A stretch of DNA of 45,573 nt from Candidatus Gorgyraea atricola (GTDB taxonomy: Bacteria; Omnitrophota; Gorgyraeia; Gorgyraeales; Gorgyraeaceae): assembly GCA_030765235.1 (NCBI GenBank), contig JAVCCW010000004.1, forward strand, positions 1 to 45,573. Direction: 5' to 3'. Both the position numbers and the translations under genes were made by a program. Each line of letters begins with the position of its first letter. Positions within the stretch are counted from its first letter, which is position 1. Shown here piece by piece: positions 462 to 45,457 of the stretch. The notes below the pieces were generated by a model, which was not told the DNA's origin, did not search any database, and worked only from the letters and a program-made list of their open reading frames with translations.

Positions 462-959
462 TCAGTTCACATACCTGCAATCAATCTTCATCTCATCTAC
501 TATATTATTATTGGCAAATAAACACCTTGCTCTATAGCTACTCCAAGGGTAATCAGCGGGGTCATTTACTATCCCTGCCTGTACAGGATTATTTTCAATA
601 TAAGTCGCTGCATTTATAAGATACTGACCTTTTATAATGGGACTGTTCTGGAATCTACCCTGCCACAGATGACCTGTTTTTCCGTATTTAGCATTAAAAT
701 ATGCAGTATAGCCCCGACTTACCCAATGCATGAATTTAGAGATATCTTTTGATTTGATGGCTTCGATAAGCATGTGTACATGGTTTTTCATAAGGCAATA
801 GGCATATAGGAATATCCTATATTTTCTCTTTGCTTTTTTGACCATGGAAAGATACTTTTCGTAGTCTTCAGCACATAAGAATATACATTGCTGCTGATTG
901 CCTCTTGCAGTAATATGATAAGAGGCATTGTCAATCAATATCCTGGAACATCTAGCCAT
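462..959 (-). CDS. REP-associated tyrosine transposase (RAYT, Y1/TnpA_REP type)
   Basis: Single-domain Y1 transposase of the IS200-like superfamily, 165 aa from the chosen ATG at 959. A GTG at 968 is in frame, but the GGGGG ribosome-binding run sits 8 nt before the ATG. The Y1 signature is clear. The metal-binding HUH motif reads NHVHML, preceded by YAYCLMKNHVH. The catalytic tyrosine lies in NAATYIENNPVQAGIV. The family ends WSSYRA are also present. RAYTs cut single-stranded DNA at REP hairpins and are usually domesticated single-copy genes. Here the gene is flanked by inverted 16-bp motifs and a 113-bp-period tandem repeat. It appears intact. Confidence 0.9.
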   Translation of the reverse strand: MARCSRILIDNASYHITARGNQQQCIFLCAEDYEKYLSMVKKAKRKYRIFLYAYCLMKNHVHMLIEAIKSKDISKFMHWVSRGYTAYFNAKYGKTGHLWQGRFQNSPIIKGQYLINAATYIENNPVQAGIVNDPADYPWSSYRARCLFANNNIVDEMKIDCRYVN

Positions 960-7017: not shown

Positions 7018-7411
7018 GGGGGCGAAAGGTTTCGACTGTGGTAAGCTTGGGAAGAGCAGCATGCCGAGGTTGTCAGGAGGCCTCGAAAAACACCTGGCAC
7101 ATATTAAACGCCAACTACGATGCAGTAGCTGAAGCTGAGGGTATTCTTACCTCCAGCGAGGCGCTCGCTGTTGCCTAATTAATTAGGCAACCCGTCTACA
7201 GGTCTTGCCTGCGGGACTTGACAGACGCTATTAGCAGGCTGGGTCATTTCTTTATGTCCTTTTGGAATGGCTGAGGAGCATGAAAAGGGCTTTGTTTGAT
7301 GATATCCCGTTTACCGGAGCTCATCAGGCGAGACCAAAAGGTAACCTAAGCATGTAGATACTGTTTTTGGGATGCCAGAGGACGCGGATTCGATTTCCGC
7401 CGCCTCCACCA
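7018..7411 (+). ncRNA. ssrA: Transfer-messenger RNA (tmRNA)
   Basis: The 5' end GGGGGCGAAAGGTTTCGAC and 3' end GGATTCGATTTCCGCCGCC TCCACCA form the tRNA-like part. GGGGGCG pairs with CGCCTCC over seven base pairs with one G-U, the T-loop is TTCGATT and CCA is encoded. The tag frame starts with resume codon GCC at 7110 and reads ANYDAVAEAEG...SSEALAVA, ending at TAA 7176. This is 22 residues, longer than the usual 8-12 or so, with a hydrophobic ALAVA protease signal. The stop lies in a hairpin (GTTGCC...GGCAAC), as in other tmRNAs. Pseudoknots follow. It works with SmpB, encoded just upstream. Confidence 0.97.
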
Positions 7412-12005: not shown

Positions 12006-12986
12006 ATGAAAATCTTACTCATACCTTTTTCATTTCTCTATTACGCGGTCATTTCTATCAGGAACTTTTTTTATAAGATAGGCATTTTTCGTTCGTACAG
12101 GCTCGACGCAAAGGTCATAAGCGTGGGCAATATCACCTGGGGCGGCACTGGAAAGACACCAGCAGCCGCATTTATAGCAAATCTTCTTTTTGGCCGTGGA
12201 CTAAAGCCAGCGATTTTATTAAGAGGATATGGTGATGATGAAGAGATACTTTATTCAAAATTGGCGCCTGCTATTCCTGTTGTGGCGGGGAAGGATAGGG
12301 TTGAGACAGGAAAGGCTATACTAGCAGGTCGTTCAGTAAAGACTATTTTGCTGGACGATGGCTTTCAATACAGGCGATTAAAAAGAGATCTGGATATTGT
12401 CTGCATAGATGCCACAGATCCATTTGGCAATGGCTGGGTCATACCAGCTGGTTCAATGCGCGAGGGCATGAGTAGCCTGAGGCGAGCGGATATCTTTTTG
12501 ATCACAAAGGTTGATCTGGCGCACGATAAAAATGGATCAAAGGAGCTGGAGAAGACCCTTAAGAAAATAAATCCAAAAGCAGCTATCTTAAAATCCAGCC
12601 ACAGCCCCCAGTATTTTTATAGACTCTCTGATGATAAGATCGTTGATGGGACAAAGTTAAAGAATAATAGTGTTGCGCTTCTCTCAGCGATCGGTAATCC
12701 TGACGCATTTGAAAAGACTATCTTGAGTCTTGGATTAAAATTCAAAAAACATTTCATCTTCCGTGACCATCATTGGTACAAAGAAGGCGACTTGAAGAAA
12801 ATAGAGAACTATTGCAGTAAAAATGGAATAGACACAATAATCACAACAGAAAAAGACGCGGTAAGACTTTCCCTTGTCCCTTGTCCCTTGTCCCTTGTCC
12901 CTGTGTTGGTTTTGCGCGTCCAACTCGAAATAACTGAAAATGAACAAGGATTCTATAATAGACTTTCTGGGATTTGTACTGGTTAA
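12006..12986 (+). CDS. lpxK: Tetraacyldisaccharide 4'-kinase LpxK
   Basis: 326-aa inner-membrane kinase that phosphorylates the 4' position of lipid A disaccharide. A hydrophobic N-terminus precedes the Walker A GNITWGGTGKTP (41-52). It is followed by LLRGYG, DDGFQYRRL (catalytic Asp-rich motif), PAGSMRE, and the late motifs RDHHWY and TTEKDAVRL. The start ATG 12006 follows the permease stop by 2 nt; an upstream in-frame start inside the permease gene is rejected. Near its C-terminus (about residues 289-299) four CCCTTGT heptamers are translated as LSLVPCPLSLVP right after the conserved TTEKDAVRL. A one-unit change would shift the frame of the last ~28 codons. Confidence 0.95.
   Translation: MKILLIPFSFLYYAVISIRNFFYKIGIFRSYRLDAKVISVGNITWGGTGKTPAAAFIANLLFGRGLKPAILLRGYGDDEEILYSKLAPAIPVVAGKDRVETGKAILAGRSVKTILLDDGFQYRRLKRDLDIVCIDATDPFGNGWVIPAGSMREGMSSLRRADIFLITKVDLAHDKNGSKELEKTLKKINPKAAILKSSHSPQYFYRLSDDKIVDGTKLKNNSVALLSAIGNPDAFEKTILSLGLKFKKHFIFRDHHWYKEGDLKKIENYCSKNGIDTIITTEKDAVRLSLVPCPLSLVPVLVLRVQLEITENEQGFYNRLSGICTG
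12871..12901 (+). repeat. Heptanucleotide tandem repeat (CCCTTGT)x4 in lpxK
   Basis: Four exact CCCTTGT units plus CCC. It is the complement of the AAGGGAC heptamer found in waaA (9775-9840) and in a degenerate form in the lpxL fusion (14314-14346). A seven-base unit changes frame when units are gained or lost. Confidence 0.9.
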
Positions 12987-14841
12987 GGTGTTCAGCGCTA
13001 TTCTTTGCTGTATGCCTTTAGGGGCCGTGCTATGGATAGGCCGGCGTGGCGGAGATCTCGCGCGTCTAGTTAATGTTAAGCGCCGATCTATAGCGTACGC
13101 TAATCTAAAATCCGCTTTTCCTGAAAAGGGCTCACGTGAGATCAAAGAGATATTGAAGTCACATTACAGAAATCTTGGCTCAAGTGTTGTAGAGTTATTG
13201 AAATTGCCTGTTATGGGCAAAAAATATTTAAATACACATGTGCGCATTGAGAATTTTGACAGGATCAATGATGTGATAGAGAAGGGTAAAGGAATTATTC
13301 TTCTTGCGGCGCATTTTGGGAATTGGGAGATAGCGTCACTGGCTGTTAGCGCGAGAGGAAAGAACATCTCTATCTTTGTACGGAAACAAAAATATGTACG
13401 ACTCAATAGATTATTGAATCAATACAGAGAGATGAGCGGATGCAATGTTATTACAAAGGGATTTTCAATTAGAGATATGATAGGGATCCTTAGAGATAAA
13501 GGCGTTGTGGCTATGCTCGTTGATCAGGATGCGGGGGCAAAAGGCGTGTTCGTTGATTTTTTGAACAGGCCTGCTTCTACGGCACAAGGGCCGATCAGCT
13601 TTGCCGTGAAAACAGGCGCCGCGATCCTTCCTACGTTTCCTCGGCGTTTAGGTTGCGCGGAGCATGTTTTAGAAATCGATGAGCCATTAAAGTTAATAAA
13701 TACTGGCAATAAAGAAGAAGATCTGAAGGCGAATTTGAGAAATGTCACTAATATCTTCGAAGATCGTATAAAGAGATTTCCTGACCAGTGGCTATGGTCG
13801 CACAAGAGGTGGAAATCTTCGCCCCAACGCACTGTCCTGGTTTTAGACGATGGCAAGGCAGGACATCTTAATCAGGCATTGGCTGTGGCAGAGATGGTAA
13901 AAGAGGCTTTAGGTTCGAGACTCAAGGCACGAGGAATAAAAGAACAGCCTATTGTTAAGATCAAGGTGGCGAAAGTAGAATTCAAAAATAAGCTGACGAG
14001 AAGGCTTTTAGATATGGCGAGTTTTTTTGCTGGAAAGCGATGCCAAGGGTGTTTACGATGTATGAAGTTTTGTTTAAAGAAAGAAAGCTTCAATGAGATC
14101 AAGGGATATGCTGATATAGTCATCTCTTGCGGCGCTTCTACTGTAGCCGCGAGTACATTTTTAAAATACGAGAATAACGCGAAGGGCATTGTGATCATGA
14201 AGCCAGGATTGGGACGAAGCAGGAAGTTTGATTTAGTTATTTTGCCGAGACACGATGCATCTCAGAAGCCTAAATCGAATATGCTTATTACAGAGATTGC
14301 GCCGAATAGGGTTAGGGACAAGGGACATGGGACAAGGGACATGGGGGTTGGGTTGCTTGTTGGAGGAGATGCGAAAAACTTCAAGTTGAAAAAAGAGGAT
14401 GTTGAGAAAGTGGTGGATGGAGTATTGAAGATCGGGCGGGATTTGTTTGTTTCTACTTCCAGGAGGACTTCGCCTGAAATAGATGGACTTATTAAAGAAA
14501 AATTAGGCGAAAAATGTAAATCATTAGTAATAGCAAACGAGAATAATAAACAAGGCGCGGTGCAGGAGATTTTTGACAAGAGCGAGGTTATAATTGTTTC
14601 GCCAGAATCTATATCCATGATCTCAGAGGCAGTGAGTTCTGGTAGGCATGTTGTAGTCTTTGGCAAGGCAGAGGGAAAGTACAATCAAGCTATTGCAAAT
14701 CTCGAGGTACAGGGTTACATAAAAACTTCTACATCAGACAAGATTTGCGATACAGTAAAACAGATTTTGACAGAAAAGCCAGAAGCAAAGAAACTCGAAG
14801 ATAAAGAGAAGATACTGAAGAGGCTAATAAGCTTAATATGA
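12940..14841 (+). CDS. Fusion: lipid A acyltransferase (LpxL/HtrB-like) + ELM1-like domain
   Basis: 633 aa. Residues 1-~290 are an LpxL-type lysophospholipid acyltransferase. It has a membrane anchor at 12-35, catalytic AAHFGNWE (His125, Glu130), VFVDFLNRPASTAQGPISFA, and the end motif PDQWLWSHKRW. It would add a secondary acyl chain to Kdo-lipid IVA. From about 296 a second domain begins, VLVLDDGKAGHLNQA. With DIVISCGASTVAASTFLK and VSPESISMISEAVSSGRHVVVF it is the ELM1 (DUF1022) type, a GT-B-like fold whose bacterial role is unsettled. A Cys cluster (CQGCLRCMKFC) follows the first ELM1 motif. A degenerate heptamer insert codes for about residues 458-469. It overlaps lpxK by 47 bp. Confidence 0.85.
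   Translation: MNKDSIIDFLGFVLVKVFSAILCCMPLGAVLWIGRRGGDLARLVNVKRRSIAYANLKSAFPEKGSREIKEILKSHYRNLGSSVVELLKLPVMGKKYLNTHVRIENFDRINDVIEKGKGIILLAAHFGNWEIASLAVSARGKNISIFVRKQKYVRLNRLLNQYREMSGCNVITKGFSIRDMIGILRDKGVVAMLVDQDAGAKGVFVDFLNRPASTAQGPISFAVKTGAAILPTFPRRLGCAEHVLEIDEPLKLINTGNKEEDLKANLRNVTNIFEDRIKRFPDQWLWSHKRWKSSPQRTVLVLDDGKAGHLNQALAVAEMVKEALGSRLKARGIKEQPIVKIKVAKVEFKNKLTRRLLDMASFFAGKRCQGCLRCMKFCLKKESFNEIKGYADIVISCGASTVAASTFLKYENNAKGIVIMKPGLGRSRKFDLVILPRHDASQKPKSNMLITEIAPNRVRDKGHGTRDMGVGLLVGGDAKNFKLKKEDVEKVVDGVLKIGRDLFVSTSRRTSPEIDGLIKEKLGEKCKSLVIANENNKQGAVQEIFDKSEVIIVSPESISMISEAVSSGRHVVVFGKAEGKYNQAIANLEVQGYIKTSTSDKICDTVKQILTEKPEAKKLEDKEKILKRLISLI
14314..14346 (+). repeat. Degenerate heptamer repeat within the LpxL-ELM1 gene
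   Basis: AGGGACAAGGGACATGGGAC is followed by AAGGGACATGGG. These GGGACAA/GGGACAT units are related to the repeats in waaA and lpxK. They are translated as RDKGHGTRDMG just before GLLVGGDAKN. Confidence 0.8.
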
Positions 14842-14844
14842 CCT

Positions 14845-14914
14845 AACTTTACTTGGCAAGGCTGGACCTCGGCTTTTTTAAAAAAGCCGAGGTCCAGCCT
14901 TGCCAAGTAAAGTT
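14845..14914. repeat. 70-bp perfect palindrome
   Basis: Two exact 35-bp arms meet without a loop at TTTTTT/AAAAAA (14874-14885). The arms begin AACTTTACTTGGCAAGG and contain CTGGACCTCGGC. It lies 3 bp after the LpxL-ELM1 stop codon. The T-run is at the apex rather than after the stem, so it is not a standard intrinsic terminator. Confidence 0.95.
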
Positions 14915-14948
14915 AACGGGAATAACGGAACTAACGGACATAACGGAC
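14914..14948 (+). repeat. Fourfold TAACGG tandem repeat before the GT4-GT9 gene
   Basis: TAACGG recurs at 14914, 14923, 14932 and 14941, i.e. every 9 bp, ending 7 bp before ATG 14956. No clear Shine-Dalgarno is visible there. A related AACGGATT repetition precedes the YfhO-like gene near 37005-37040. Confidence 0.75.
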
Positions 14949-14955
14949 TAAACGA

Positions 14956-17040
14956 ATGAATATCTTACAAATATTACCAATGTTAGATGTGGGTGGAGTG
15001 GAGACAGGGACTGTGGATCTGTCTAAGGAGCTTATTAAGCGAGGGCATAAGGTCATTGTTGTATCTGGCGGCGGCAAAATGGTAAGTGAGCTTTTGGACA
15101 TGAAGGCAAGGCATATCAAACTTCCAGTATATAAAAAATCCTTGCTTACAGTCATTGCCATGGTCAAGGCGCTGGAGCGGATTATAAAAGAAGAGCGTGT
15201 GGATATTGTGCATGCCCGTTCCCGCGTACCAGCTATTATCGCGTTCTTTGCAACACGGCGCACCAGCGCCAGCTTCATTACTACCGCGCATGGTTATTAC
15301 TCAACGCATCTTTTGAGCAGGGTCATGGGCTGGGGCAAATTTGTAATCGTAGCCTCTAATGTTATAGGCCGCCATATGATAGAGGATTTTGGCGTGGCGC
15401 GCGAGAGGATAAGATTTATTCCAAGGGGAGTTGACCTTGAGAAGTTTAGATTTAACCCGATAGACGCATCGCGCCAGAAGACAGAATACAAGATAGGTAT
15501 TATCGGCAGGATCACGCCTATAAAAGGCCATGCCTTTTTTTTACAGGCGATCGCAAGGGTGGTGCGCATATTTCCAAAGGCAAAGATATTGATCGTGGGA
15601 GACGCGCCTAAGGGTAAGCCTGAGTACAAGGAAAATCTAAAGGCATTGATACGAAAACTCAACATAGAAAAGTTCGTAGAGTTTTTAGGATCCAGGCACG
15701 ATATACCTGAGATCATATCCGGGCTGGATCTTTTGGTGCTGCCGTCTGTGGGCCAGGAGGCATTTGGCAGGGTCATTATCGAGGCAGGCGCATGCGGCGT
15801 GCCAGTGATAGCGACTCGCATAGGTGGTGCTGTAGATATCATAGAGGATAAAAAGACAGGCATGCTTGTAAAGCCGGGCGACATAATGGAGATGGTGGAT
15901 TCTATCGTGAAGCTCTTGAAGGATCGCAGCCTTGCTAGGGGCCTTGCGATCGAGGCGAGGAAAAAAGTTGAGAAGGAGTATAGCCTGATTCGCATGGCTG
16001 AGCGCACAATAAAGCTTTACGAAGAGGCATCCAGGAAGAAAAGGATCCTGGTGATAAAAATAGGCGCAATAGGTGATGTGATACTTGCGGTGCCGAGTCT
16101 AAGGGCGATCAGAAATAGTTTTCCAGACGCGTTTATTACAGTCCTCATAGGTACTGAATCCAGGCATGTATTGAAAAGGTGCCCGCATATAGATGATCTG
16201 ATACTTTATGACAGGAGAGATAGAGATAGGGGAATCAGGGGATTGGGGAAGATCTCAAACATTGTGAAGCGCAAGGCCTTTGATAGGTCTTTTGATTTTC
16301 AGAATAATAGAGCCAGCCATATCATTGCATGGCTGGGCGCTATACCTAATCGTTTTGGCTATCGCAATAATAAGTTTGGATTTTTGCTAAATCATGGATT
16401 AAGGCATTTGAAGATCGATGCAGGGCCTGTTGAAGATCAATTCAGGGTGCTTAAACGATCAGGCATCAACACCATAGGCGTTTCTAAACGTCTGGAGGTA
16501 TGGCCTACAAAAGAGGATTCTCTGTACGTGGAAAATCTTTTAAAGAATGAATGGGTGAGGGAAAATCAGATCCTGGTGGGTATTAATATTGGCTCGAGCT
16601 GGAAGACAAAGACATGGCCTTTAAAAAATTTAGCAAGGCTTTCAGATATGCTGGCTGCAAAGGACATCAGGGTGATTCTTACAGGATCAAAGAAAGAATC
16701 AGACCTGGCCGCGGATGCTATGAAACTAACGCATAGCAAGGTGATCAATATAACTGGAAAGACGACCCTGACACAGCTGGCAGCATTGATAAAAAAATGT
16801 AAGGTGTTTATTACAGGAGATAGCGCTCCTATGCATATTGCCTCGGCAATGGATGTAAATTTCATTGCGCTGTTCGGACCCACTGATCCCAGGAGGCATT
16901 TTGAGCCAACACCTAAAGGTATTGTGATACAAAAAAAGGTAAATTGCGGGCCATGCTACAAGGCCGAGTGTAAAAAGCATATATGTATGGAGAAGATCGG
17001 TGTGGATGAGGTTTTTAAATTAATTATGGGGAAGATATGA
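14956..17040 (+). CDS. Fusion glycosyltransferase: GT4 + GT9 (heptosyltransferase-like)
   Basis: 694 aa made of two GT-B enzymes. Residues 1-~355 are GT4: LQILPMLDVGGVETGTVDL at the acceptor loop, TAHGYYS, FIPRGVDLEKF, IGRITPIKGH, and EAFGRVIIEAGACGVPVIAT with the donor-binding E-x7-E pattern. From ~359 the GT9 domain starts RILVIKIGAIGDVILAVPSL. It contains GSSWKTKTWPLKNLARL, FITGDSAPMHIA, ALFGPTDPRRH and a terminal Cys set CGPCYKAECKKHIC. Such enzymes extend the LPS core with hexoses and heptoses. The fusion suggests two consecutive additions. Acceptors cannot be told. It overlaps the next gene by 4 bp. Confidence 0.9.
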   Translation: MNILQILPMLDVGGVETGTVDLSKELIKRGHKVIVVSGGGKMVSELLDMKARHIKLPVYKKSLLTVIAMVKALERIIKEERVDIVHARSRVPAIIAFFATRRTSASFITTAHGYYSTHLLSRVMGWGKFVIVASNVIGRHMIEDFGVARERIRFIPRGVDLEKFRFNPIDASRQKTEYKIGIIGRITPIKGHAFFLQAIARVVRIFPKAKILIVGDAPKGKPEYKENLKALIRKLNIEKFVEFLGSRHDIPEIISGLDLLVLPSVGQEAFGRVIIEAGACGVPVIATRIGGAVDIIEDKKTGMLVKPGDIMEMVDSIVKLLKDRSLARGLAIEARKKVEKEYSLIRMAERTIKLYEEASRKKRILVIKIGAIGDVILAVPSLRAIRNSFPDAFITVLIGTESRHVLKRCPHIDDLILYDRRDRDRGIRGLGKISNIVKRKAFDRSFDFQNNRASHIIAWLGAIPNRFGYRNNKFGFLLNHGLRHLKIDAGPVEDQFRVLKRSGINTIGVSKRLEVWPTKEDSLYVENLLKNEWVRENQILVGINIGSSWKTKTWPLKNLARLSDMLAAKDIRVILTGSKKESDLAADAMKLTHSKVINITGKTTLTQLAALIKKCKVFITGDSAPMHIASAMDVNFIALFGPTDPRRHFEPTPKGIVIQKKVNCGPCYKAECKKHICMEKIGVDEVFKLIMGKI

Positions 17041-26168: not shown

Positions 26169-27121
26169 AAAAACGCGCAAAGCAAGTTCTGAAAATCGAA
26201 GCGGATTCTATTAGACGTCTTTCTTCTCGCATAAACAAAGATTTCGAGAAGGCAGTTAAGCTTATCTTTGCCTGTAAAGGCCAGGTAGTTGTAACAGGCA
26301 TGGGCAAGGCTGGTATTATTGGCAACAAGATCTCAGCCACACTTGCCTCCACTGGCACGCCTAGCCTGTGGCTACATTCAGGAGAGGCGATTCACGGTGA
26401 TCTTGGCCGCGTAAGAAAACAGGATGTTGTGGTTGCTATCTCAAATAGCGGAGAAACAGAAGAGATTGTACGACTTATCCCAAATATAAAAAAGCTCGGC
26501 GCAAAACTTATTGCCATAACAGGAAATCCGCGTTCAACCCTTGTCAAGAATAGCGATGCCACACTTGATGTATCCATAAAAGAAGAGGCGTGTCCCTTAG
26601 GCCTTGCGCCAATGGCAAGCACCACTACCATGCTTGCAATGGGCGATGCGCTTTGCGCTGCCTTGATCGACAAGCGAGGTTTTAAAAAGACGGACTTTGC
26701 GTTTTTACATCCTGGCGGAAGCCTTGGAAAGCAGCTTCTTCTAAAGGTAGAAGATATAATGCGAAAAGGCGCTCAGAATCCAATAGTAAAAGAAAATGCC
26801 AAGGTAAAGAGTGTACTTTTAAAGGTTACAAAAGCCCGTGCTGGAAGTGCCACAATAGTTGATGCAAATGGAAAACTCAAAGGCATATTTACAGACGGTG
26901 ATTTAAGAAGACACCTGGAAGAAGGGCATGACCCTTCAAAGAAAAAAGTAAAAGACATAATGACAAAAAATCCAAAGGCCCTGAGAAAAGGCCGCCTCGC
27001 AGTAGAGGCGCTCAGGATTTTGCGAGAACATAAGATAGACGAGATCCCAATAGTAGATGAAAAAGGCCGCGCAATAGGCCTGGTGGATGTGCAGGATCTT
27101 CTAAAGGCAGGACTTGTATGA
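26162..27121 (+). CDS. kdsD: Arabinose-5-phosphate isomerase KdsD
   Basis: 319 aa, SIS sugar-isomerase domain (about 30-185) followed by two CBS motifs (about 200-315). Signature pieces: VVTGMGKAGIIGNKISATLASTGTP, WLHSGEAIHGDLGRV, AISNSGETEEIV, FLHPGGSLGKQLLLKVEDIM, and the CBS ends GIFTDGDLRRHLE and EIPIVDEKGRAIGLVDVQDL. It converts ribulose 5-phosphate to arabinose 5-phosphate, the first Kdo-specific step. Its stop codon TGA (27119-27121) adjoins an inserted hairpin repeat. Confidence 0.96.
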   Translation: MLKKRAKQVLKIEADSIRRLSSRINKDFEKAVKLIFACKGQVVVTGMGKAGIIGNKISATLASTGTPSLWLHSGEAIHGDLGRVRKQDVVVAISNSGETEEIVRLIPNIKKLGAKLIAITGNPRSTLVKNSDATLDVSIKEEACPLGLAPMASTTTMLAMGDALCAALIDKRGFKKTDFAFLHPGGSLGKQLLLKVEDIMRKGAQNPIVKENAKVKSVLLKVTKARAGSATIVDANGKLKGIFTDGDLRRHLEEGHDPSKKKVKDIMTKNPKALRKGRLAVEALRILREHKIDEIPIVDEKGRAIGLVDVQDLLKAGLV

Positions 27122-27248
27122 AATCCCAATACTACCAATACTACCAAATCCCAAATAAATCCAAAATCCCAAATCCCAAGACATGTTTGGGATTTTGAAA
27201 TTGGGATTTATTTGGTAGTATTGGTATTTATTGGGATTTGGGATTTTT
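27121..27248 (+). repeat. ORF-less long hairpin element (AATCCCAA family), copy 1
   Basis: The left arm begins AAATCCCAATACTACC and reads outward to about 27178. The right arm (27187-27248) is its imperfect complement, ending ATTGGGATTTGGGATTTTT. The centre is ACATGT. It is nearly identical to 31431-31558. Its arms match the two arms that enclose the four-helix-bundle gene at 44866-45358. It lies between kdsD and kdsC and begins on the last base of the kdsD stop codon. Confidence 0.92.
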
Positions 27249-27257
27249 CATGATGTT

Positions 27258-28355: not shown

Positions 28356-28410
28356 TATATTAAAATATTATATTCTCTCATCAGTGATGAGAGTTTTGAC
28401 TAATCCCTTA

Positions 28411-28445
28411 TATATAGACACATCTCGAGGCCCATTTTCTTTCAA
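28411..28445 (+). repeat. AGACACAT...TTCTTTCA dispersed repeat
   Basis: TATATAGACACATCTC followed after an 11-base spacer by TTTTCTTTCAA. The same arrangement occurs at 45376-45410 and, with AGACACATTT, in both tandem copies at 978-1198. It marks the junction between the toxin-antitoxin side and a response-regulator gene that lacks its 5' half, so it may be the end of an insertion element. Confidence 0.7.
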
Positions 28446-28502
28446 GAAAATAAAATATTTTTCCCTGACCTTGTAGAAATATGGATTATCAGGTAAACTT
28501 AT

Positions 28503-31053: not shown

Positions 31054-31431
31054 ATGGCAGGTATACAGAAGAAGATTCTAGTAATCGACGATGAAGAGGA
31101 CATGCAGAAACTTTTAAAGGTGAGGCTTGAGCAGGAGAGTTTTCAGGTAGTAACAGCCGGCGATGGGGATATCGGATTGAAGACAGCAGAACAGGAGCTG
31201 CCTGATCTGATCATCCTGGATATCATGATGCCCAAGGTAGATGGGTTTAGCTGCTTAAAAGACATAAGAAAGCTTCCAAAGACAAAGGATATCCCTATTC
31301 TCATGTTAAGCGGCAAGGAAGAAGAAAAGGTCAGGGACTTATTTGCCTTTCAGAAGATCAGTGGATATATTGAAAAGCCATTTGAGCTGGACGATTTAAT
31401 TACTAAGGTAAAAGAGATACTTAAGATATGA
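31054..31431 (+). CDS. Single-domain response regulator (FVEKPF-like subgroup)
   Basis: 125 aa preceded by GAGGAGGAG. Receiver residues: ILVIDDEEDMQK, DLIILDIMMPKVDGF, PILMLSGKEEEKVRDLF (Ser as switch residue) and SGYIEKPFELDDLI. The stop codon TGA (31429-31431) shares its last base with an inserted hairpin element that separates it from the next kinase gene. The insert leaves the coding frame intact. Confidence 0.93.
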   Translation: MAGIQKKILVIDDEEDMQKLLKVRLEQESFQVVTAGDGDIGLKTAEQELPDLIILDIMMPKVDGFSCLKDIRKLPKTKDIPILMLSGKEEEKVRDLFAFQKISGYIEKPFELDDLITKVKEILKI

Positions 31432-31558
31432 AATCCCAATACTACCAATACTACCAAATCCCAAATAAATCCAAAATCCCAAATCCAAAACCATGTTTGG
31501 GATTTGGAAATTGGGATTTATTTGGTAGTATTGGTATGTATTGGGATTTGGGATTTGT
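31431..31558 (+). repeat. ORF-less long hairpin element (AATCCCAA family), copy 2
   Basis: Same structure, orientation and length as 27121-27248, differing at only a few positions (e.g. AATCCAAAACCATG for AATCCCAAGACATG at the centre). It also follows TATG and starts on the final base of a TGA stop codon. The copies are too alike to be old. Confidence 0.92.
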
Positions 31559-31573
31559 CAGATAGGACTATAT

Positions 31574-44419: not shown

Positions 44420-44866
44420 ATGCTGGAAAATTTAGGTAAAAAAGAGAAGACTGAGATTGCGATAACTGCTATTGGTATCGTATTTTTGATATTTATGGTC
44501 ATAGGCAATGTGCAGAAGTTTCAGACTAAAAAGGCCTCCATGGCTAAAAAGCAAGATGTAGTGACGTCTTCTCTGTCAGTGCCGATCTCTTTTGAGGCGC
44601 CAGAGATAGAGGAGACAACCATAAAGGAAGGTTGGGGTCACGATCCTTTTACCTTAGGCTCGGCAGGAGCAGGAGACATTGAGCTCGAAGGCCTTGTCCT
44701 GAATGGCATTATGTGGGACCCAGCCAATCCACTTGCGATCATCAATAGTGACGTTATTAAAGTAGGAGACTCGCTCGGCACTGCAACAGTAGTTGAGATC
44801 ACCCAGAACAGCGTTATCCTCGAACAAGACAGCCAACGCCACACCCTAAACCTTGTAGCATATTGA
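44420..44866 (+). CDS. PilP/GspC-like periplasmic protein
   Basis: 148 aa, membrane helix at about 13-30 (IAITAIGIVFLIFMVIGNV), linker of ~40 residues, then a small beta domain: WGHDPFTLGS, LEGLVLNGIMWDPANPLAIINSDVIKVGDSLG, VVEITQNSVILEQDSQRHTLNL. This matches the homology region of PilP/GspC-type proteins that bind the secretin. It is anchored by a helix rather than a lipobox. A secretin gene (pilQ) would be expected next but an inserted element follows the stop. Confidence 0.8.
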   Translation: MLENLGKKEKTEIAITAIGIVFLIFMVIGNVQKFQTKKASMAKKQDVVTSSLSVPISFEAPEIEETTIKEGWGHDPFTLGSAGAGDIELEGLVLNGIMWDPANPLAIINSDVIKVGDSLGTATVVEITQNSVILEQDSQRHTLNLVAY

Positions 44867-45358
44867 AAAATCCCAAATCCCAATAAATACCAATACTACC
44901 AAATAAATCCCAATTTCCAAATCCCAATTTTTTCAATCATCTAGATTTACTTATAATTGCGCTCAGAATGCTGATAATTTCTTGACATTCTTTTATATCC
45001 ATAATAATGTCTTTTTCTTCGATATATCTGCCAGAAGAAAGTCTCAGCCAATATCTTGTTTCCTTGGCTTCTTTTCTAGCTATCACCGTTTTGTTAACAA
45101 AATCTTTCTTTGTTAAAGTTCCATCAGCTTCTTCTACATTAGCACCAATTGACGTACCTGCTTTAGTTAATTGCCTACCTATTATCTCACATCTAGTATT
45201 ATTAGGCAACTGCTCAACTATGTCAATTATCCTCTGTGCAAATTTAAATGTTCTATCTTTCAAATTGTAGTATTTTTCACTCATTTTAACCTCCGTGTTT
45301 TGGATTTGGGATTTTGGATTTATTTGGGATTTGGTAGTATTGGTAGTATTGGGATTTT
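44866..45358 (-). mobile_element. IVS-like element: four-helix-bundle gene enclosed by long inverted arms
   Basis: The left arm (44866-44929) begins AAAAATCCCAAATCCCAATA and the right arm (45299-45358) ends TAGTATTGGGATTTTCC. They are imperfect complements and can form a stem of roughly 60 bp. On the - strand they match, in order, the two arms of the ORF-less copies at 27121 and 31431, so those look like internal deletions of this form. Between the arms is one gene (44937-45284). The element starts on the last base of the PilP-like stop codon. The layout resembles 23S rRNA intervening sequences, but here it is not within rRNA. Confidence 0.85.
44937..45284 (-). CDS. Four-helix-bundle protein (S23/IVS-encoded family)
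   Basis: 115 aa from ATG 45284, which has GGAGG 5 nt upstream. In-frame codons farther upstream are arm sequence (NPNTTNTTKSQINPKSQ) and need not be translated. Motifs: LKDRTFKFAQRIIDIVEQLP, IGRQLTKAGTSIGANVEEA, TKKDFVNKTVIARKEAKETR, YWLRLSSG, ECQEIISILSAIISKSR. This is the family found in intervening sequences of 23S rRNA and, structurally, in Avd proteins of diversity-generating retroelements. It binds nucleic acid in the Avd case. No enzymatic motif is evident. Confidence 0.93.
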   Translation of the reverse strand: MSEKYYNLKDRTFKFAQRIIDIVEQLPNNTRCEIIGRQLTKAGTSIGANVEEADGTLTKKDFVNKTVIARKEAKETRYWLRLSSGRYIEEKDIIMDIKECQEIISILSAIISKSR

Positions 45359-45375
45359 CCATAATTACCTCTCTA

Positions 45376-45410
45376 ATATATAGACACATCTCAACCCCCG
45401 TTTTCTTTCA
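45376..45410 (+). repeat. AGACACAT...TTCTTTCA dispersed repeat, right copy
   Basis: AATATATAGACACATCTC, an 11-base spacer, then TTTTCTTTCA, matching 28411-28445. It lies 18 bp outside the arm of the IVS-like element, on the side of the insertion sequence that enters the window. Confidence 0.7.
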
Positions 45411-45457
45411 AAAATCTTTACCCTCCTTAAATTCCCTTAAATTATATGTAATACCAA

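Follow-up and report, generated by a model that had tools for sequence, protein, structure and literature searches.

The window, by which we mean the whole 45,573-nucleotide stretch analyzed here, carries close to its right end a small S23/IVP gene of the four-helix-bundle type on the minus strand (44937 to 45284; ATG at 45284, stop at 44937). Its product is a basic protein of 115 residues (pI 9.1), which matches the profiles PF05635 (69.6 bits, E 3e-19) and TIGR02436 (86.9 bits, E 1e-24) with scores above their cut-offs; with phmmer, it also matched PDB entry 2rld, which comprises five chains of one sequence. A predicted ribosome-binding site, GGAGG (45290 to 45294, minus strand), lies just 5' of the start codon and within two inverted arms that enclose the gene. 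The 5' arm (AAATCCCAATACTACC... on the gene strand, 45297 to 45357, minus strand) is 100% complementary over its 61 nucleotides to positions 31431 to 31491, and the 3' arm (TTGGGATTTGGAAATTGGG... on the gene strand, 44864 to 44927, minus strand) is 97% complementary to positions 31497 to 31560. The preliminary description of this DNA had recognized an S23 gene bounded by inverted arms of about 60 bp and had placed the element at 44866 to 45358; the arms and the location hold, but the ends are corrected to about 44864 and 45357. At its low end, the element shares positions 44864 to 44866 with the TGA stop codon of the upstream open reading frame (ORF), which belongs to a pilus/type II secretion operon. 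The full element folds as RNA with -128.5 kcal/mol (z -7.1), and comparison with Rfam yielded no known family for the hairpin. A 7-nucleotide period is partly degraded in these arms.

As had been noted, the element contains no transposase and no reverse transcriptase, and the window genome (97.6% complete) gave no match to PF00078 either. A reverse transcriptase or diversity-generating retroelement partner was rejected on this ground, and because nothing of the kind parallels S23 in the relatives. The Avd protein of these retroelements is a basic four-helix-bundle relative of S23, but their reverse transcriptase is absent from the element and was not found in the genome. There is no rRNA in the window, whose RNA genes consist of a tmRNA gene (7018 to 7411; Rfam RF00023, 179.8 bits) and one tRNA gene. 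The reading of the locus as an architecture like that of rRNA intervening sequences (IVSs), with complementary ends around S23 and dispersed in protein operons, is borne out. A 45-nucleotide direct repeat (TATATAGACACATCTC..., 84% identical) occurs at 28404 to 28448 and 45370 to 45414, the latter adjoining the S23 element; perhaps it is a promoter or regulatory motif.

Gene-less copies and a further family elsewhere in the genome

Two gene-less copies lie on the plus strand of the window, one between kdsD- and kdsC-type genes (27117 to 27250) and one at the junction of a response-regulator gene with the following gene of its operon (31427 to 31560). They are 96% identical to each other over 134 nucleotides, share a CATG center, and match the S23 arms at 94 to 100% in a repeat search of the window. 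Both had been reported earlier as CATG-centered copies, and the expectation that such copies align with the arms over their full length agrees with the 61 nucleotides at 100% and the 97% of the other arm given above. Folded as RNA, the short copy reaches -57.3 kcal/mol (z -8.1), and none of 200 shuffled sequences was equally stable. When the short copy was compared by blastn with the entire Omnitrophota genome (1.74 Mb), 50 strand-wise matches were obtained (best E 3e-65); after overlaps were merged by hand, they correspond to about 21 non-overlapping gene-less places, including the two of the window and excluding the gene-bearing copy. The arms are therefore not confined to the flanks of the S23 gene, a point for which a whole-genome search had been proposed. 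The only longer form found for the short copies bears S23 and no transposase. It may be their parent, as had been proposed, or a hairpin that acquired the gene. Matches to the short copy are also present in one relative, in which a contig carries an S23 gene with arms of the window family.

The settings of the 21 short copies, read by eye against mechanical ORF calls, are nearly uniform: neighboring genes are co-directional at 20 of them and convergent at one. Eleven start with ATG|A(A)AATCC in the operon orientation; here a TGA often ends the upstream gene, and the ATG, which precedes the left end, may belong to the element end. Such settings would suit a domesticated signal for RNA processing or decay, in which RNase III cuts the hairpins to uncouple operon neighbors, S23 acts as an RNA chaperone, and slow spread is due to host recombination. 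The strength of the hairpins and the upstream stop codon at the end of many elements are in line with this account, as is the RNase III cleavage of S23-type IVSs (PMC4990558); the comparison of related genomes below makes us regard it as quite unlikely. At the convergent site (C28:60101 to 60272), a second hairpin (CCTTTGACTACGCTCAGGATTGG...) is seemingly nested within the short copy.

The genome has only one other PF05635 gene (C10:140470 to 140781), to which the Avd profile matches weakly and whose arms consist of GTGTCAA/TGACACT units. A genome-wide search with GTGTCAGGTGTCA, one mismatch allowed, gave 25 matches; the reversed control gave none. At least five inverted gene-less pairs (C2:39679, C10:114960, C10:136297, C28:56434, and C29:346215) and one-sided arrays (C20:47329 and C29:349496) belong to this group. 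It is a further family in the window genome, built to the same plan as the first but independent of it.

Filled and bare junctions in sister genera

For three copies (kdsD/kdsC, metG, and nuoI), orthologous junctions were compared among sister genera, the empty-site comparison that had been suggested beforehand. The kdsD/kdsC junction, filled by the element in the window genome, is a bare ATGA stop/start overlap in G007, G001, G003, G011, and G012; the metG junction in G003 and G002 and the nuoI junction in G006 are likewise bare, whereas both are filled in the window genome. Unrelated palindromes or heptamer hairpins stand instead at metG in G007 and at nuoI in a second G006 locus, G007, and G004, and other palindromes occupy these junctions in G009, G002, and G008. 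Since the junctions are filled here and bare or otherwise occupied in relatives, small insertions turn over at gene junctions, and from this presence and absence we infer movement. The kdsD/kdsC operon junction is a hot spot of small insertions; at three loci from other genomes, it holds unrelated palindromes or repeats. At kdsC and metG, ATG(A) stands to the left and right of the element, of whose end it may be a part, and a clean target-site duplication was not established at the copies and junctions compared. Because the same junctions hold different palindromes or none in sister genera, no site-specific function is conserved, which counts against the RNA-signal account, as does an element that took over the central part of a methyltransferase gene.

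The latter case concerns a C5-cytosine methyltransferase gene of Nostoc plasmids. Three plasmids carry it in intact form; in three others, an S23 element with AATTCGC arms has taken the place of about 330 bp in its middle part. The element thus replaces part of the host gene rather than merely interrupting it, which counts against the mode of spread proposed below. One of the three elements has one 7-nucleotide unit fewer in each arm than the other two. The intact gene has CAATTCG, which resembles the repeat unit, at the left junction. On several cyanobacterial plasmids, S23 genes adjoin defense genes, including a position between cas2 and cas1. Six plasmid loci of this kind were noted; other S23 genes among them lie next to a methyltransferase and a drmD-type helicase or between DUF1156 and Swt1/HEPN genes.

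The window S23 protein and a homologue from another locus share 82 of 112 residues, with a dN of 0.18 and a dS of 2.0, a value near saturation that should be taken only as large. The arms of the two elements are identical at 53 of 58 and 55 of 59 aligned positions. Judged from these substitution rates, the gene is under purifying selection, and the arms are still 91 to 93% identical despite a dS of about 2.

Inverted heptamer arrays beside S23 genes of many phyla

Inverted arrays of degenerate 7-nucleotide repeats bound S23 genes of many phyla as well as S23 genes on plasmids and viral contigs. The full element consists of one small basic S23/IVP gene between two such arrays, and the unit sequence differs among elements, while the 7-nucleotide period and the inverted symmetry are constant. 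For 82 S23 loci drawn from the window genome and related genomes, each upstream flank was matched in inverted orientation with its downstream flank; the best match had a median score of 17.25, compared with 9.0 when flanks of different genes were paired at random. Only 28 of the 82 lie above the 99% control point (18.5), because the mispaired controls contain mutually similar elements. Self-matching at these loci is raised at lags 7, 14, and 21 (0.364, 0.340, and 0.327, against about 0.27 to 0.30 at other lags), with nothing comparable to the lag-7 signal in the far flanks. Among 77 named loci from many phyla, an uneven sample of the family because they were found by the profile of one S23 subgroup, the corresponding medians are 19 and 9, and 52 loci exceed the 95% control point.

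In a pool of 201 S23 genes, a 7-nucleotide-periodic segment (score of at least 12, a cut-off chosen by us) is found upstream of 55%, downstream of 48%, and on both sides of 31%. Lags of 4 to 6 and 8 to 11 give at most 5%, and the far flanks give 4% at lag 7; given this 4% versus 48 to 55% beside S23, heptamers as a general trait of these genomes were rejected. About one-third of the S23 genes have weak or undetectable arms, and in a Desulfobacteraceae pair, the repeat unit is nearer 9 nucleotides. Read by eye, inverted heptamer arms are present at plasmid S23 loci of cyanobacteria, Chloroflexota, Treponema, and Bernardetia and at most of 20 viral-contig loci. An rRNA location was rejected for the window and for 20 sampled named loci, each of which has no rRNA within the surrounding 3.3 kb or so.

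The two arms of an element belong together. Their repeat units agree at 5.76 of 7 positions, compared with 3.79 in mispaired arms, and their lengths are correlated (rho 0.48, p 8e-5, n = 63), with a median of five units per side; the purine-richer arm is the upstream one in 49 of the 63 elements. The S23 proteins are basic (median pI 9.17), and arm composition tracks protein identity when GC content is allowed for (partial Mantel r 0.395, obtained at a more permissive arm cut-off of 9; the maximum of 500 permutations was 0.126), a trend that flattens for cross-group pairs above 40% identity. This co-variation can reflect recognition or common descent as one unit, and under either, arms and gene form one element.

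Alternatively, slippage of DNA polymerase might make the arrays, with the S23 genes as passengers that preferentially insert into them or are tolerated there. Such an origin has already been suggested for heptamers (PMC4692102); the number of units varies between strains and plasmids, as in Nostoc here and in an earlier report (PMC4990558), and arrays also occur without an S23 gene and within coding frames. Slippage, however, yields neither inverted pairs flanking one gene family nor dispersed, near-identical palindromes of 130 bp. The excess of matching inverted units on both flanks of one gene over mispaired controls, the co-variation of arms with protein, and the rarity of arrays in distant flanks also count against it, and we consider it quite unlikely.

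Relation to known repeats and a proposed mode of spread

To our knowledge, S23/IVP genes occur widely, have no known function, and have rarely been studied outside rRNA. The window element resembles the S23-encoding IVSs of Coxiella and Leptospira in having an S23/IVP gene between complementary, stem-forming ends; it differs from the IVSs of 23S rRNA in lying in protein operons, in many dispersed copies, and with no rRNA nearby. It is the rRNA IVS in a form dispersed over protein operons, a hairpin whose sole protein is basic and which has neither transposase nor reverse transcriptase. Gene-less IVSs, too, are known in rRNA. The Coxiella IVS is excised by RNase III, and GACAGAT heptamers lie 5' of its S23 ORF, whereas both arms of the window-type elements are heptamer arrays; the S23 protein is a homopentamer, which in Coxiella is argued not to be made in vivo (PMC4990558).

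The origin and function of the heptanucleotide repeats in cyanobacteria, xanthomonads, and other groups are unexplained (PMC4692102, PMC4476775). The STRR-type repeats of cyanobacteria, GGGAATC of Xanthomonas, and TAACTGA of Beggiatoaceae (PMC4679880) are 7 nucleotides long, intergenic, and sometimes arranged in inverted pairs, as are the S23 arms, which in turn are degenerate tandem 7-nucleotide units dispersed over S23 flanks, plasmid loci, and the second family. Four Xanthomonadaceae S23 genes have heptamer arms that include GGGAATC, a dispersed Xanthomonas repeat that forms about 70 inverted pairs in each genome and for which no function was found (PMC4692102). Cyanobacterial S23 arms are heptamer arrays. 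In a Saprospiraceae genome with ATGACAA/ATGACAG S23 arms, 53 pattern matches were found, against 0 in the control, which adds heptamer arrays of a third genome to the gene-less copies of the two families above; in one cyanobacterium, the count (208) is uninformative because the reversed control gave more (430). The stem of the Nostoc trnL (tRNA-Leu) intron contains complementary 7-nucleotide motifs of unknown origin (PMC4476775) and is plausibly a further case of S23-type heptamers. Two puzzles, the S23/IVP genes and the heptanucleotide repeats, are thereby joined, and scattered gene-less arms may account for several long-puzzling 7-nucleotide repeats. Two earlier reports describe such repeats with no S23 link or known mechanism (PMC4692102, PMC4679880), and in the open-access literature, we found S23 genes linked to inverted heptamer arrays only for Coxiella; subscription papers lay mostly outside this search, and priority for the link is not certain.

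We consider it somewhat better than an even chance (about 0.55) that the window element belongs to a class of minimal, IVS-like mobile elements that extends across bacteria and spreads by S23-driven copying of a hairpin. How they move and what S23 does, we infer as follows. The transcribed arms would fold into a long hairpin that is cut by RNase III, as in rRNA IVSs, and because it can be cut, insertion into operons and rRNA would be tolerated. The basic and probably pentameric S23 protein, for which we know of no catalytic domain, may bind its cognate repeat arms, either as hairpin RNA or as single-stranded DNA, and help host enzymes to copy the hairpin into new sites, in cis for the full element and in trans for the gene-less palindromes. 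The 7-nucleotide period may be the register of binding or copying, since period and symmetry are kept while the sequence drifts. In a bolder version, which we hold only tentatively, S23 would be the hallmark of an unrecognized, transposase-free class whose pentamer reads the 7-nucleotide register of the hairpin for host enzymes to copy, with many heptamers and the Nostoc tRNA-Leu intron stem as its gene-less progeny. The pairing of S23 with inverted heptamer arrays and gene-less copies offers a concrete gene-repeat pair for binding, RNase III, and mobility assays.

The elements also recall miniature inverted-repeat transposable elements, in which short, ORF-less inverted repeats correspond to the termini of a longer copy with a gene, except that the longer copy here has no transposase. 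A resident Y1 transposase (IS200/REP-associated) might move the palindromes, as RAYTs move REPs and REPINs, with S23 as cargo or regulator. Palindromic intergenic elements dispersed in bacteria are typical REP material, and 52 of 59 relatives have Y1_Tnp genes, as has the window genome with six, one of them in the window (588 to 929 or, with wider limits, 462 to 968 on the minus strand). S23 is found in 33 of the 52 relatives with Y1_Tnp, compared with 1 of the 7 without it, a count that ignores relatedness. Being present in nearly all relatives, however, Y1 does not discriminate, and it was set aside as the obvious driver. S23 elements have heptamer arrays in place of one short REP and S23 in place of RAYT as the partner gene; no Y1 gene was seen within any of them, arm sequences differ between families while the 7-nucleotide period stays, unlike in REPs, and the GTGTCAA family lacks the GTAG tag. 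We therefore think this explanation unlikely, although Y1 may act in trans, and the window Y1_Tnp gene may drive other palindromes.

Further repeats were seen in the window. A CCCTTGT array (12870 to 12902) lies within the LpxK ORF and leaves its frame unbroken, and a GGGACAA/GGGACAT array (14314 to 14352) lies within an ORF for a lipid-A acyltransferase/ELM1 fusion, the frame of which is likewise intact. Directly 3' of an ORF end, positions 14844 to 14985 contain a palindrome with 38-nucleotide arms followed by a 9-nucleotide periodic array (TAACGGACA...).
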